Of a stretch of 41,729 nt of DNA, positions 1-35,753 are shown one piece after another. The stretch is from positions 1 through 41,729 of the IMG/VR virus record IMGVR_UViG_3300020183_000172. The stretch is one strand, 5' to 3'. Positions within the stretch are counted from its first letter, which is position 1; every line of letters starts with the position of its first letter. This stretch comes from a virus. Both the position numbers and the translations under genes were made by a program. The notes beneath the pieces are model-generated. The model did no database searches, was not told the DNA's origin, and saw only the letters and a program-made list of their open reading frames with translations.

Positions 1-2360
1 CTGTAATTAGGATTTACATCCCAGGTACACAACCTGAAACACAGCATTTCTTTGGCGTCCAGGCGACCTTCTTCAACCTGTTTCCACAGAGTGTCGGACA
101 TGTCACTCTCTTGCCATGCAGATCCAATAGCAATCTTCAAGCCGCCGTCAGAGCGATGTTTGAAACGCGTGGTACCCTTACCGACGTTATTCCAGAGAGC
201 TAGTCCTGAGCTCTCTACGGTAGCTCCAGGCTCAACTGCAAATCGGTTTACCTCGTCCATTAATAGGCCCCAAAGGTTCTTACCTACAAGACCGGCTCCT
301 CGGGAATGTCCTGCTCGGAAAATAATGTTCTTTTTTCTGTGGATGATTTCAGTGGTTTGAACAACAATATCACCCCGTTCAATCATTGCTCCAAAGTATG
401 CAGAGGATTCCATACGAGCTTTTGTGTATGCAAAGATCGTATCTTTAGCCTGCTGCTCGTTTGTTGCAATTGACAGAACAAATATAGGGTCTCCTGCAAT
501 CAAGCCTAGTTCAGCTCCAGGGTTATCCATCTTTGTAAGACGATAAAACTCATAAGCAGACATACCACCAGTAATTGAGGAGTTATGAGAAACAATTCCA
601 TTTGCCACAAACTCCGCAACCTCTGGAACGCAAATATCGTAGGTAGGCTCGTGAGTGTCCCAAATTTCTGTTATTGGGTCAAAGAACAGGTTCTGAGTGA
701 GCAGTTCTTGCAAGAACTTGATTTCTTCTTCACACCCATCTACTTCCTTGAAGTAGTTAATAATTTCTAGAAGTTTGTTATAAGTTATGCCAGATTGACT
801 ATCCGGATTCTCTCTTAGCAAAGTACCGCCGCATTGGCGGCGTATACTACCCCACTTGTCAACACGACCGGAACCCCTTGCAACCATTCCTTCTTTTAGT
901 TTCATCTTTTTTAGCATGGTATGCAAATAAGGAACTTTATCTACTGTATCAACTAGAGTGTCAGGAGCCTCTTCTAAAATTCTTTGCTTACGTTCAAGAC
1001 CAAAACCAATACTATTAAAAAATCTACGTGCGTTCCTACCGTAAATATGTAACGTCCAATAGCTATTGGTAGTGCCGTCTTTTTTAGTGTAGTTACCGGT
1101 GTAGTAAGCTCTGCTTGAAACAATCCCAAATCCCAGTAGTAATACCTGTACTTCTTTAAGTAACTGCTCAGAAGTGGAAGCAAGCCCTACTGTTAGACGC
1201 TTCTTGAGGCCGTATTTGCCCTTAGTAGTACTACAGCTGGCAAATCCATCTGTGTCGTACAAACCCCGCAAGAAATGCCGCACAGTCTCTTTAGATGATG
1301 TTCTTATTGCAGCGGGAATCTTCTTAGTGTAAGAAGTTGTACGATTGAGACTCAGAGACTCTAAGAAGTCCCTTATGACCACAGAATGGTAAGACACACA
1401 GTTAACTTTAGTATTATCCAAGTAAGGTCTTACAGTAGGTTTTACGCCAAACTGTTTTTCAAAGATTTGGCAGTAATCTTCTATTAGTGATTGATCCATA
1501 GAAGTCAGAACAATAGAAGAAGACTGGTTTACACCGCCATCACCAACCAGATAACCAAGAATACGGCCAAGTTCAGGAGACATGTGTGTTGGCAGTTTAT
1601 AGGGGTTTACCTTTCTCTTACGCTCTTTTGGTTGAAACTCTATTGGCTTATCAGTTCCAAACCCGGCGTGGTTACGCTCTACACACAAAACATCTCCGAC
1701 CTTTACGTCCGGAAGCTTTTTCCATGCAAACTCCCCATCCTTTGTAAAGACCAGGATTGGGTGTACTACAGAACCGCCAACCTCGTAACCAAATCTAGTC
1801 CTAAGGTTTATGACCCTCTCAGAAGGTCTGGAAATACCCGCCGCAGTACGCTTAAATCCAAACCTAGTGTGTACATCAACACTCAGCGGAACAATGGTCT
1901 CCTCTGAAACATTTGATGGTAAATATTCATCCTGATACAGGAATCCGCGACCTTTGATAGACGTTAGGGCAAGACTTAGGCACTTGGAACTACCCATGCC
2001 AGATTCTAAGGACAGGTTTTTATAGCGCTGCCCAGGCACCCAAATAGCCTTCTTTTCTGCAATCCAGTTGTCCATGATGAGTTGCTCATCGAACTCGTCA
2101 TCGGGCCCGTGACCCCACTGGGCAAGCTTCTGAAGCCTGTTAGGGTCGTCTGGGTTGATGCATTCAAGCCACTTACCCTTACCCAGCGGCAAGCCATAAA
2201 AAGACTTCATGATGACCCGCTGAGCAGGGAACAGGTACATGCCCAGGATTTCCCTGCAAAACTCAATAGGTCCTAGCAGTTCGTCTTCTTGCTGTAGCGC
2301 CTCTGAGATGATGTCGTCTAACAGGCCGCCAAAGCTTTGGTCTTTCTTATCTCGGGCCAT
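1..2360 (-). CDS. terL: Phage terminase large subunit interrupted by an intein; 3' end cut by window edge
   Basis: This is the DNA-packaging ATPase, which would drive genome translocation into the prohead. I translated the frame by hand: it is open from the ATG at 2360 to base 1, giving 786 residues with no stop, so the C-terminal nuclease domain lies off the window. The start follows the previous stop by one base. Residues 1-126 are the N-extein, with a terminase-like adenine-binding region (FPAQR) and Walker A SGMGSSK ending at Lys126. Residues 127-593 are an intein. The host protein resumes at Ser594, so the joined P-loop reads SGMGSSKS. Walker B is LLMDE at 699-703, about position 235 in the spliced protein. 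The segments QQAKDTIF and GAGLVGKNLWG also fit large terminases. The assignment rests on recognised motifs, not a database search. The enzyme would be inactive until splicing because the intein separates the catalytic Lys from the Mg-binding Ser. Confidence 0.9.
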   Translation of the reverse strand, partial: MARDKKDQSFGGLLDDIISEALQQEDELLGPIEFCREILGMYLFPAQRVIMKSFYGLPLGKGKWLECINPDDPNRLQKLAQWGHGPDDEFDEQLIMDNWIAEKKAIWVPGQRYKNLSLESGMGSSKCLSLALTSIKGRGFLYQDEYLPSNVSEETIVPLSVDVHTRFGFKRTAAGISRPSERVINLRTRFGYEVGGSVVHPILVFTKDGEFAWKKLPDVKVGDVLCVERNHAGFGTDKPIEFQPKERKRKVNPYKLPTHMSPELGRILGYLVGDGGVNQSSSIVLTSMDQSLIEDYCQIFEKQFGVKPTVRPYLDNTKVNCVSYHSVVIRDFLESLSLNRTTSYTKKIPAAIRTSSKETVRHFLRGLYDTDGFASCSTTKGKYGLKKRLTVGLASTSEQLLKEVQVLLLGFGIVSSRAYYTGNYTKKDGTTNSYWTLHIYGRNARRFFNSIGFGLERKQRILEEAPDTLVDTVDKVPYLHTMLKKMKLKEGMVARGSGRVDKWGSIRRQCGGTLLRENPDSQSGITYNKLLEIINYFKEVDGCEEEIKFLQELLTQNLFFDPITEIWDTHEPTYDICVPEVAEFVANGIVSHNSSITGGMSAYEFYRLTKMDNPGAELGLIAGDPIFVLSIATNEQQAKDTIFAYTKARMESSAYFGAMIERGDIVVQTTEIIHRKKNIIFRAGHSRGAGLVGKNLWGLLMDEVNRFAVEPGATVESSGLALWNNVGKGTTRFKHRSDGGLKIAIGSAWQESDMSDTLWKQVEEGRLDAKEMLCFRLCTWDVNPNY
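582..1982 (-). mobile_element. LAGLIDADG homing-endonuclease intein inside the terminase P-loop
   Basis: This is an in-frame protein-splicing element of 467 residues (terminase precursor residues 127-593). Splicing block A starts with Cys1 (CLSLALTSIKG). Block B is GGSVVHPILVF, with the conserved His at intein position 74 and Ser where Thr is usual. Block F is YDICVPEVAEFVANG. Block G is VSHN, ending in His466-Asn467, followed by extein Ser+1. Between the splicing halves lie two dodecapeptide motifs: LGYLVGDGG (Asp148) and LRGLYDTDG (Asp245). Both acidic catalytic residues are present, so the endonuclease may be active. Cys1, the block B His, the penultimate His, the terminal Asn and Ser+1 are all intact, so splicing is expected. 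Known inteins favour catalytic motifs such as P-loops. About 180 residues between the second dodecapeptide and block F are unassigned, probably the rest of the endonuclease domain. Confidence 0.92.
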
Positions 2361-32849: not shown

Positions 32850-33320
32850 TTACTCAGCCTTACCAAACCGGTCAGCTAGAAGGTTGCCGTAAACGAACTT
32901 GCCACCTTCTGGCTCAACCTGCACACTCTGACTCAGGACCTGCTTAGCGCCGACCTGATTGAAATTAACTCGGTTTTCTTCTGGGAGCTTATCCAGAAGG
33001 CCGAATAGTAGATCTGAAAGATTAGTCTCAGAACCACCCATCGAGAGCTTCTGCTCAAATCCGGCGTTACGGACTGCAGAGACGACTTCATCCACCAGTA
33101 CAGGTGGAATACGGTCGCGCTTTGCAGCTTCGGCACGCTGGCTAAGCTTTAGCTCGTACTTTTCCTGAGCAGTTGCAGCAGCCTGATTAGCTAAAGCGTC
33201 ACGCTCGTTCTTTAGAGCGGACTTTTCAGCCTGCTCCGCTTCAAGGGCGGAGACGGTCTGACTGAGCTTCTGCTCGAGCTCGGCAAGCCGAGCTTCGAGA
33301 GCCTCATTCTGTTCCGGCAT
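32850..33320 (-). CDS. Probable nested scaffold protein from an internal start in the protease gene
   Basis: This is an in-frame internal start at Met812 of the protease gene and would yield 156 residues. The sequence GAGGAGGG lies seven bases before this ATG, stronger than most genuine start sites in the window. The product begins MPEQNEALEARLAELEQKL, a long charged coiled coil with Gln/Glu/Lys-rich composition, then a C-terminal globular tail. That is the architecture of phage scaffolds. In phage Mu the scaffold Z is made the same way from the 3' end of protease gene I, and lambda C/Nu3 is analogous. It directly precedes the capsid gene. Confidence 0.7.
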   Translation of the reverse strand: MPEQNEALEARLAELEQKLSQTVSALEAEQAEKSALKNERDALANQAAATAQEKYELKLSQRAEAAKRDRIPPVLVDEVVSAVRNAGFEQKLSMGGSETNLSDLLFGLLDKLPEENRVNFNQVGAKQVLSQSVQVEPEGGKFVYGNLLADRFGKAE

Positions 33321-35753
33321 GTGAATACCCTCCTCGTGGGTAGTGTGACTTGCCGAGGGGGTCTCCACCCCTGCAGCATCGGTGCTGAGCATCTGCTGTT
33401 GCTCAGCAGCTACTCCTTGACTCAGGGCCTCGACTAAGTAGGCTACGGCCCCTTGTGGGTGGTGGGGTGGCATGGGACGGTAATCACGAGTTTCACTACC
33501 GTTATTTCCCCTATCACCCTGGTTGGAAAGCATCTCAGAACCCTGCGGTGCCCCCTTGACCTGTTCGCCATTGACATAGAGAGCGCTCAAATTAGCATCT
33601 GCCGAAGCAGTGTGCCTCTCTGAAACTTCAATGCCAAACTTGTTTGCTGCTGCACGAATACGGCGCATTGCAGATTCTTTTTCACCAGGAGTTAGATCCT
33701 TGGTCTGATTGAACCTAGCAAGAGCATTACGAACGTGAGACGCATCATGAATTGGAAGCTTACGCTTCTCAGGAACAGCAAACTGATCAGCATCTAGTGA
33801 CTTACGGGCACGGTAGGTCAGCTGAGCAAGCTGCTCATCATTACGATCCATGAGCTCATCTTCAAAATCATCCATGAAGATTTCGTAATTGTTTGCACAG
33901 CAGTAGTCCATGCAATCCATGTCGGACATTGAAGCTAAATCAAGGTCCATGTGCTTCATAGACAGCATCTCATTTGGCATCTTTTCCATGTGCCCAGTGT
34001 ACCTCTCTTCAGAAATTGACTCTTGTGATAGAGCTTGAAGTGTGGAAACCTTATGACCAACATATTCGTCAGTTGATTTTAGTTTACCATCTTCTTTGCG
34101 ATAAATCTGAATTCGAGCAGCAGGATCATCTGGACTTCCTGTAATCTTTACAGGAATTCCTGGAACATTACCATTCTTGACAATGCCTACAACCTTACCC
34201 ATTGCAGTACCGCCAGAAGATCCCCACTTAACCATTGAGCCTACGCCCATGGCGTACATTTCAGACTTGCTGTTGCTCATTTCCTGCTTCTTTTCTTCTT
34301 GACGCAAGATACCATCAACCCAAGACTTACCAGGATCTCCACCCCAGAGCAGCCAAGCAATTGCCCCACGGTCACCCTCAGCGGGGCTACCAGACTTGTT
34401 CTTTTCGTGGCGGGCAAAGAATGAACGCATGCGCCTGATAGTCTTTAAAGGGAGTGAAGAACCGTCTGCTAGATCTCGAGCGCGAGCTACCCCGCTACCA
34501 ATACCTTGTTTTCCAGCTTCACGCGTATCTAGACCACCGCGGCCAAACTTCTTACGGAACTCAAGTCCACGCCGAGCAGCTGCACGAACACTCTGTGGTG
34601 GAACAAAGCCATCAGACAGGCTTTCATGCATATCTGCCTCATATTCTTCTTCAGCTCGGAATGAAAGCTCTTCTTTAGCCGCACCCACCTCATAAGATAA
34701 GAACTCCTGATTCGAAAGCTTCATGAGATCTTCGTTAGACATACGGACAATCTTTTCGCCCATGGAAAGGTACTCAGGAAGCGCAGGAGGCTTCATTCCA
34801 GTACCGCTTTGATCAGGACGACCCTTTACAAGAATGCCATTCTTATAAACTGGGGTATCTGTAAAGATTGATGCTGTGAACTTCTGAGCAAGAGGCTTAA
34901 GATCTTCTTCCTGCTCCATCATGGAACACATCTGCTTCATGGCAAGCTTGAAGTCTTCTTCAGACATGCCATTTGAAAGATAAAGACCGTATGCTCCCTG
35001 GATACTGAGAGTCATACGGTTTGAATAAGCTTCTTCGCTTTCTTCTGCACCCTGCTTCATGCTAAGGCACATTTCCTTCAGGCCCGGCATCATAGGCGCA
35101 GCAGATTCTTCAACAGCAAGCTTCTGCATATCGCCATGACGCTCATCATCACCCTTAGCAGCAAAAGGATTCTGGCTAAGCAGCTGAGACAGACCATCAA
35201 AGGCTAGTGACAGCCGCTGCAAGAATGTGGCCTGATCAGGCATTTCAGTAGTCTCCTTCATATTAAGCACAAAGAATTGCTCATCAGATACGTTATTGCT
35301 AAGCACCTGATTACGTGGAAGATCTGGTACAAATGGTGCATTTGTAAGTGATACTGCAGTTAGTACAGTACCAATTCTACCTTGCCCAAGTTTCTTTCCA
35401 GGGGCATTCCGGGTAAGTTCTGCAGAAGCGTAGCGGTACTTACCGTCACGAATTTCATTTACTACCGTTGGGTCTACGGTCTTGAAGATTCCAAACAGGA
35501 TATCATTTTCTTGCTCAATCTTGGATAAGAATGCAGTTGCAGGTTCACCATCTGCTGCGCCAGCGTACCGCGCGTGGCCGTAACGTAAGTAAGGCTCGAA
35601 GCCCCATTCGTTCTTTTCAAAGTTACGCCTGATGTCGTCAAAGTCTTTTTGTGTAAACCAAACGTAGTCGTACGCCGGATGTTCCCAAGCACCCAGTCGG
35701 GCGATGGGAATCTTAAGCATGCTGCTTAATTCTTGTGTTTGCGTAAAACTCAT
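32850..35753 (-). CDS. Prohead protease-scaffold polyprotein, Mu gpI-like (967 aa)
   Basis: This is the maturation protease that would cleave the scaffold inside the prohead. Residues about 13-155 match Mu-I-like proteases, with candidate catalytic His60 (LRYGHARY) and Ser110 (YRYASAEL), and the family-like end TAVSLTNAPF at 132-141. Later parts are: a helical Met/Glu-rich region (215-300); a conserved phage module at 420-480 (ARARDLADG, RMRSFFARHE, AIAWLLWGG); a Tudor-like DUF2945-type segment at 500-575 (VGSMVKWGSSGGTAMGKV); a Met-rich acidic stretch at 588-620; a DUF6582-like segment at 664-712 (KLPIHDASHVRNALARF); a linker; and the coiled-coil scaffold from 812. It is much longer than Mu gpI. 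The first ATG starts the transcription unit after the hairpin at 35862-35884. Confidence 0.85.
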   Translation of the reverse strand: MSFTQTQELSSMLKIPIARLGAWEHPAYDYVWFTQKDFDDIRRNFEKNEWGFEPYLRYGHARYAGAADGEPATAFLSKIEQENDILFGIFKTVDPTVVNEIRDGKYRYASAELTRNAPGKKLGQGRIGTVLTAVSLTNAPFVPDLPRNQVLSNNVSDEQFFVLNMKETTEMPDQATFLQRLSLAFDGLSQLLSQNPFAAKGDDERHGDMQKLAVEESAAPMMPGLKEMCLSMKQGAEESEEAYSNRMTLSIQGAYGLYLSNGMSEEDFKLAMKQMCSMMEQEEDLKPLAQKFTASIFTDTPVYKNGILVKGRPDQSGTGMKPPALPEYLSMGEKIVRMSNEDLMKLSNQEFLSYEVGAAKEELSFRAEEEYEADMHESLSDGFVPPQSVRAAARRGLEFRKKFGRGGLDTREAGKQGIGSGVARARDLADGSSLPLKTIRRMRSFFARHEKNKSGSPAEGDRGAIAWLLWGGDPGKSWVDGILRQEEKKQEMSNSKSEMYAMGVGSMVKWGSSGGTAMGKVVGIVKNGNVPGIPVKITGSPDDPAARIQIYRKEDGKLKSTDEYVGHKVSTLQALSQESISEERYTGHMEKMPNEMLSMKHMDLDLASMSDMDCMDYCCANNYEIFMDDFEDELMDRNDEQLAQLTYRARKSLDADQFAVPEKRKLPIHDASHVRNALARFNQTKDLTPGEKESAMRRIRAAANKFGIEVSERHTASADANLSALYVNGEQVKGAPQGSEMLSNQGDRGNNGSETRDYRPMPPHHPQGAVAYLVEALSQGVAAEQQQMLSTDAAGVETPSASHTTHEEGIHMPEQNEALEARLAELEQKLSQTVSALEAEQAEKSALKNERDALANQAAATAQEKYELKLSQRAEAAKRDRIPPVLVDEVVSAVRNAGFEQKLSMGGSETNLSDLLFGLLDKLPEENRVNFNQVGAKQVLSQSVQVEPEGGKFVYGNLLADRFGKAE
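35241..35258 (-). promoter_or_regulatory. Internal ribosome-binding site candidate at Met171 of the protease gene
   Basis: AAGGAG nine bases before an in-frame ATG (35243) at the boundary between the protease domain and the rest of the polyprotein. The product would start with MPDQ, echoing the MPEQ start of the nested scaffold. This could give a protease-free version of residues 171-967. The codons AAG-GAG encode Lys-Glu anyway, so chance is possible. Confidence 0.35.

Follow-up and report, generated by a model that had tools for sequence, protein, structure and literature searches.

The terminase gene and its genomic setting

The window, that is, the whole 41,729-nucleotide stretch analyzed here (IMG/VR record IMGVR_UViG_3300020183_000172), carries at its left end a minus-strand reading frame that opens with the ATG at position 2360 and remains open, over 786 codons, up to the window edge. 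A second IMG/VR contig (L002; 40,183 bases), which departs from the window in 2 places over 2,360 compared bases, completes the gene, which is found again in a third contig (L003). The complete precursor comprises 1112 residues, 645 of which would remain after the predicted splicing, and the spliced protein matches the PHROG terminase families phrog_17415 (1.6e-12) and phrog_9 (1.8e-6), as well as the protein annotated as terminase in Microcystis phage Ma-LMM01 (E 4e-65, 30.5% identity). These matches identify the product as a terminase large subunit (TerL), a P-loop ATPase and nuclease homologous to known TerLs, and thereby uphold a preliminary description of this DNA, which had recognized a TerL frame running off the left edge. 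The assignment rests on the PHROG families and the Ma-LMM01 homologs, since searching the PDB by sequence, using a profile of the exteins, returned nothing. Moreover, neither the precursor nor a related intein-free TerL (L015, see below) is matched by any Pfam TerL model, so terminases of this kind can escape automatic annotation.

The neighboring genes in the window code for a tail sheath, a major head protein, a head maturation protease and baseplate J-like proteins. The window is thus a myovirus-like structural block, and its source is an uncultured, myovirus-like tailed phage; a near-identity DNA search with the first 12 kb of the window found no match among phage records. Within the same block, positions 32850-35753 (minus strand) encode a 967-residue protein in which an N-terminal match to head maturation proteases is followed by matches to the unrelated phrog_2859 and DUF6582, and which is possibly a multi-domain fusion. 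The features of the terminase gene are listed in Table 1.

Table 1. Features of the terL gene in the window, in the direction of transcription after the gene itself.
Feature	Position	Strand	Basis
terL, encoding the terminase large subunit; runs off the left edge, with 786 of its 1112 codons inside the window	3..2360	-	Completed from L002:6001-9339; PHROG matches
N-extein, 126 residues, ending ...LESGMGSSK	1983..2360	-	Aligns with intein-free TerLs
P-loop (Walker A) GMGSSK, split directly after Lys126	1983..2000	-	Aligns with GRRGGK/S (Ma-LMM01) and GRRGSK/S (Microcoleus phage)
Intein, 467 residues, CLSLAL...GIVSHN	582..1982	-	Pfam; AlphaFold model; Foldseek; no counterpart in empty allele L015
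Block B, GGSVVHP, catalytic His74 (Ser in place of Thr)	1758..1778	-	Alignments; His74 invariant in 22 inteins
LAGLIDADG motif 1, ILGYLVGDG, acid Asp148	1536..1562	-	Pfam LAGLIDADG_3 in two stretches; alignment
LAGLIDADG motif 2, LRGLYDTDG, acid Asp245	1245..1271	-	Pfam LAGLIDADG_3 in two stretches; alignment
Blocks F and G, YDICVPEVAEFVANGIVSHN, ending His466-Asn467 (Ala in place of block F His)	582..641	-	Alignments
C-extein, first 193 of 519 residues, opening with +1 Ser (579-581)	3..581	-	Translation; exact junction
Walker B, LWGLLMDE	252..275	-	Asp235/Glu236 (numbered in the spliced protein) invariant across this TerL and those of Ma-LMM01 and the Microcoleus phage

A complete intein within the P-loop

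The ends of the inserted segment (CLSLALTSIK and FVANGIVSHN) map exactly to positions 1982 and 582 and are followed by Ser, giving the junctions ...LESGMGSSK / CLSLAL ... GIVSHN / SSITGG.... Its 1401 bases are identical across the three contigs and contain 0 stops and 0 frameshifts. A Hint-type splicing domain is indicated both by the Pfam Intein_splicing model, the match to which (1.6e-10) exceeds the gathering cut-off, and by the predicted fold: an AlphaFold model based on 22 aligned viral inteins related to this one (mean pLDDT 88.3, pTM 0.90) has complete LAGLIDADG inteins as its best solved matches in Foldseek, namely TliVMA (7qss, 2.3e-25) and PI-PfuI (1dq3, 4.2e-20), with PI-SceI ranking lower. 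Pfam LAGLIDADG_3 is matched in two stretches (7.7e-23), each of the two motifs carrying one catalytic acid (in YLVGDG and LYDTDG, respectively). Since both endonuclease acids are kept, homing activity of the predicted enzyme is likely.

The core residues of a class 1 intein (Cys1, His74, His466, Asn467 and Ser+1) are all intact, and His74, Asp97, His466 and Asn467 are invariant among the 22 related inteins. Such a set of Cys1, His, terminal His-Asn and a +1 nucleophile implies the ordinary class 1 pathway. Beyond this core, block A is without the usual Asp-Ser/Thr pair, and the block B Thr and block F His, consensus residues that are common and not universal, are replaced by Ser (GSVVH) and Ala (PEVAEF). 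Both of these positions vary among related inteins, so they do not define the class and membership in class 1 stands; with some of the changes common to relatives, the deviations are better read as traits of the lineage than as decay. Judging from the sequences, splicing might be slower than usual, although several related phage inteins carry such changes. The preliminary description had placed a 467-residue LAGLIDADG intein at 582-1982 with both endonuclease acids and every splicing residue in place. The profile searches, the fold, the exact junctions and the empty allele described below agree with the first two points, while the third holds for the splicing core and fails for blocks A, B and F.

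Intein-free alleles of the site

Single-protein scans of viral contigs recovered only the same phage, and a profile of three exteins was therefore needed to find an empty allele. This allele (L015, a 194,626-base viral contig) codes for an intein-free TerL with 73% identity over 622 residues, which reads SGMGSSKSSLTG across the site without a gap, and it constitutes the strongest single proof that 582-1982 is a precise insertion. The insert is likewise missing from the TerLs of Ma-LMM01-like Microcystis phages, extein homologs with about 30% identity over 91%, and of a Microcoleus phage, with which the site aligns free of gaps (SGMGSSK/SS against CGRRGGKSV and AGRRGSKSA, respectively). The insertion in the host protein thus falls exactly between the P-loop Lys126 and the next Ser, where it had been placed from the window sequence alone. 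A broken ATPase, as might be read from SSK in place of GK, was considered and rejected, given that Ser is found likewise in the intein-free L015 protein, in the Microcoleus phage TerL and in other contigs.

In the empty allele (L015:4370-4384), all four serine codons at the site belong to the other codon family than those of the occupied allele. The conserved serine codons 124, 125, 127 and 128 all change family between the window and L015, whereas 6 of 21 do so elsewhere; the mean difference per conserved codon is 1.12 bases at the site against 0.59 elsewhere, in a comparison of one sequence pair looked at after the fact. As a lead only, such recoding would fit either an L015 site resistant to homing or co-conversion at insertion.

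Crowded and variant inteins in related terminases

All eight of the related P-loop intein hosts tested, taken from the inteins extracted from viral contigs, match TerL families. The most unusual by-product of the analysis is the apparent presence, as read from the sequences of related TerLs, of pairs of inteins crowded around a single P-loop with 0, 2 or 6 residues between them. A 1449-aa TerL (L036:1124-5470) harbors two inteins separated by two extein residues (GRGG/431 aa/SK/425 aa/STIAAI); these are only 44% identical to one another, which makes a simple assembly duplication unlikely. In a 1674-aa TerL (L038:1544-6565), two inteins appear to follow each other with zero residues between them (GRRASK/ALDLN...ITHN/CNSSS...ISHN/STMAS), the first of them starting with Ala, and the nuclease domain contains a third. 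Being back to back, the Cys1 of the second intein would serve as the +1 nucleophile of the first, and the order of splicing would be forced. A TerL-like protein (L087:2420-6862) appears to carry two inteins flanking the P-loop, with a six-residue micro-extein (SRGMSK) between them. A limited search of the literature on adjacent or tandem inteins found no spacing as tight as 0, 2 or 6 residues. Closely spaced inteins are known from haloarchaeal MCM (PMC10643990), and the TerL1-a and TerL1-b sites of mycobacteriophages lie one residue apart, for which we found no report of both sites being filled simultaneously.

Threonine at intein position 1 is unusual, and it is apparently found, in place of Cys, in the P-loop TerL inteins of L050:418-3558 and L072:3476-6745; in those of L043:3752-6826 and L069:3218-6283 this position is apparently Ser. 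Another TerL of the same family (L041:3980-7060) has its LAGLIDADG intein at a different site, past Walker B (IGRG/CQYKDD...ISHN/TITFG). Finally, phrog_9666, which is listed as of unknown function, matches L042, L043, L045, L050, L064, L069, L072, L107 and the window intein; since the regions it matches in many TerL precursors are inteins, the family probably comprises inteins of TerL.

Discussion

Taken together, these results make one reading nearly certain: the packaging ATPase of a myovirus-like phage is interrupted, between Lys and Ser of its P-loop and at a site favored by homing, by a full-length class 1 intein that contains a LAGLIDADG homing endonuclease with two motifs and is predicted to splice and to cleave DNA.

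Inteins at exactly this spot of TerL are already known, so the novelty implied by the preliminary description does not hold, and the window presents a complete intein at a known hotspot. Seven terminase intein sites have been described in mycobacteriophages, one of which (TerL1-a) lies between the invariant Walker A Lys and Thr and was termed a 'classic' P-loop insertion; the endonuclease was active in two tested inteins (Kelley et al. 2016, PMC5050341). The window intein, lying between the P-loop Lys and the following hydroxyl residue, occupies this same site in a host of the same function, although its host TerL is divergent and its +1 residue is Ser instead of Thr. Because the 71 tblastn matches to the window intein (E 1e-5) include no mycobacteriophage record, a common insertion site, and not a common lineage, is claimed here. 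The best-scoring annotated relative (30% identity over 98%) is the terminase intein of Psychrobacillus phage Perkons (MT325768), a LAGLIDADG intein that also follows the P-loop Lys (GFGK/T) and that, unlike the window intein, has 442 residues, a canonical block A, the block B Thr and the block F His. A closely related annotated intein occupies the same Lys/Thr bond in a helicase-like protein (LR745208). The best structural match, TliVMA/PhoVMA (PDB 7qss, 7qst), covers the whole intein including the endonuclease, whereas its host is an archaeal V-ATPase and its identity to the window intein is 18%; VMA-b inteins likewise follow the Walker A Lys (PMC10643990). Cyanophage Mic1 offers another freshwater phage terminase with an intein in its ATPase domain and one intein with an endonuclease, but its TerL is P22-like and has its second intein within the nuclease domain, whereas the window TerL has one only (PMC7156551).

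By the class 1 pathway, Cys1 would undergo the N-S acyl shift, Ser+1 would accept the chain and Asn467 would cyclize with the assistance of His466, joining the exteins into SGMGSSKSS, a working P-loop. Given that the P-loop is split, the precursor should be inactive until it splices. The endonuclease would probably cut intein-free terL alleles, into which the intein would then be copied. The location in the P-loop is best explained by the biology of homing, for the sequence there is conserved, any imprecise removal would ruin an essential protein and an unspliced precursor should be inactive.

It might instead be argued that the intein is a co-opted regulatory switch, with conditional splicing (through redox, metal, temperature or DNA) setting the onset of packaging late in infection. 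The splitting of the ATP-binding loop and the several secondary catalytic residues that depart from consensus are in line with such a role, and a similar proposal exists for the two inteins of the Mic1 TerL, which have been suggested to control packaging (PMC7156551). Against it, homing by itself predicts insertion into conserved active sites, and a relative with the 73%-identical empty allele manages without an intein. Furthermore, when five TerL inteins of mycobacteriophages, inserted at sites other than this one, were placed in a reporter, every one spliced readily to ligated extein (PMC5050341), so that timing of packaging by splicing is not to be assumed; the suggestion of such timing in the preliminary description has low support, and these assays lean against a slow switch. 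We therefore regard a regulatory role as improbable, and its stricter form, in which residues of blocks A, B and F are tuned for slow or conditional splicing and hold the ATPase inactive until a late-infection signal, as slightly more so.

A decaying intein, with a partly defective endonuclease or splicing domain and retained since its removal must be precise, would account for the non-canonical residues of blocks A, B and F; yet the intein keeps both LAGLIDADG acids, its entire set of core splicing residues and a complete, confidently modeled fold, the reading frame is undisturbed, the same deviations occur in related inteins and a terminase left unspliced would presumably be lethal, which makes this reading very doubtful. 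Nothing was found in favor of a third reading, a domain normally present in this terminase subfamily, and it can be dismissed, as the segment matches intein profiles and folds and is missing from the L015 protein and the Microcystis phage homologs.

An intein maintained by homing remains, then, the preferred reading. Were splicing to prove conditional, it would constitute a post-translational switch on genome packaging. The occupied and empty alleles provide a testable pair in an uncultured phage lineage, and the locus is a further well-documented instance, accompanied by a naturally empty allele, of the preference of inteins for the ATP-binding loops of packaging motors.
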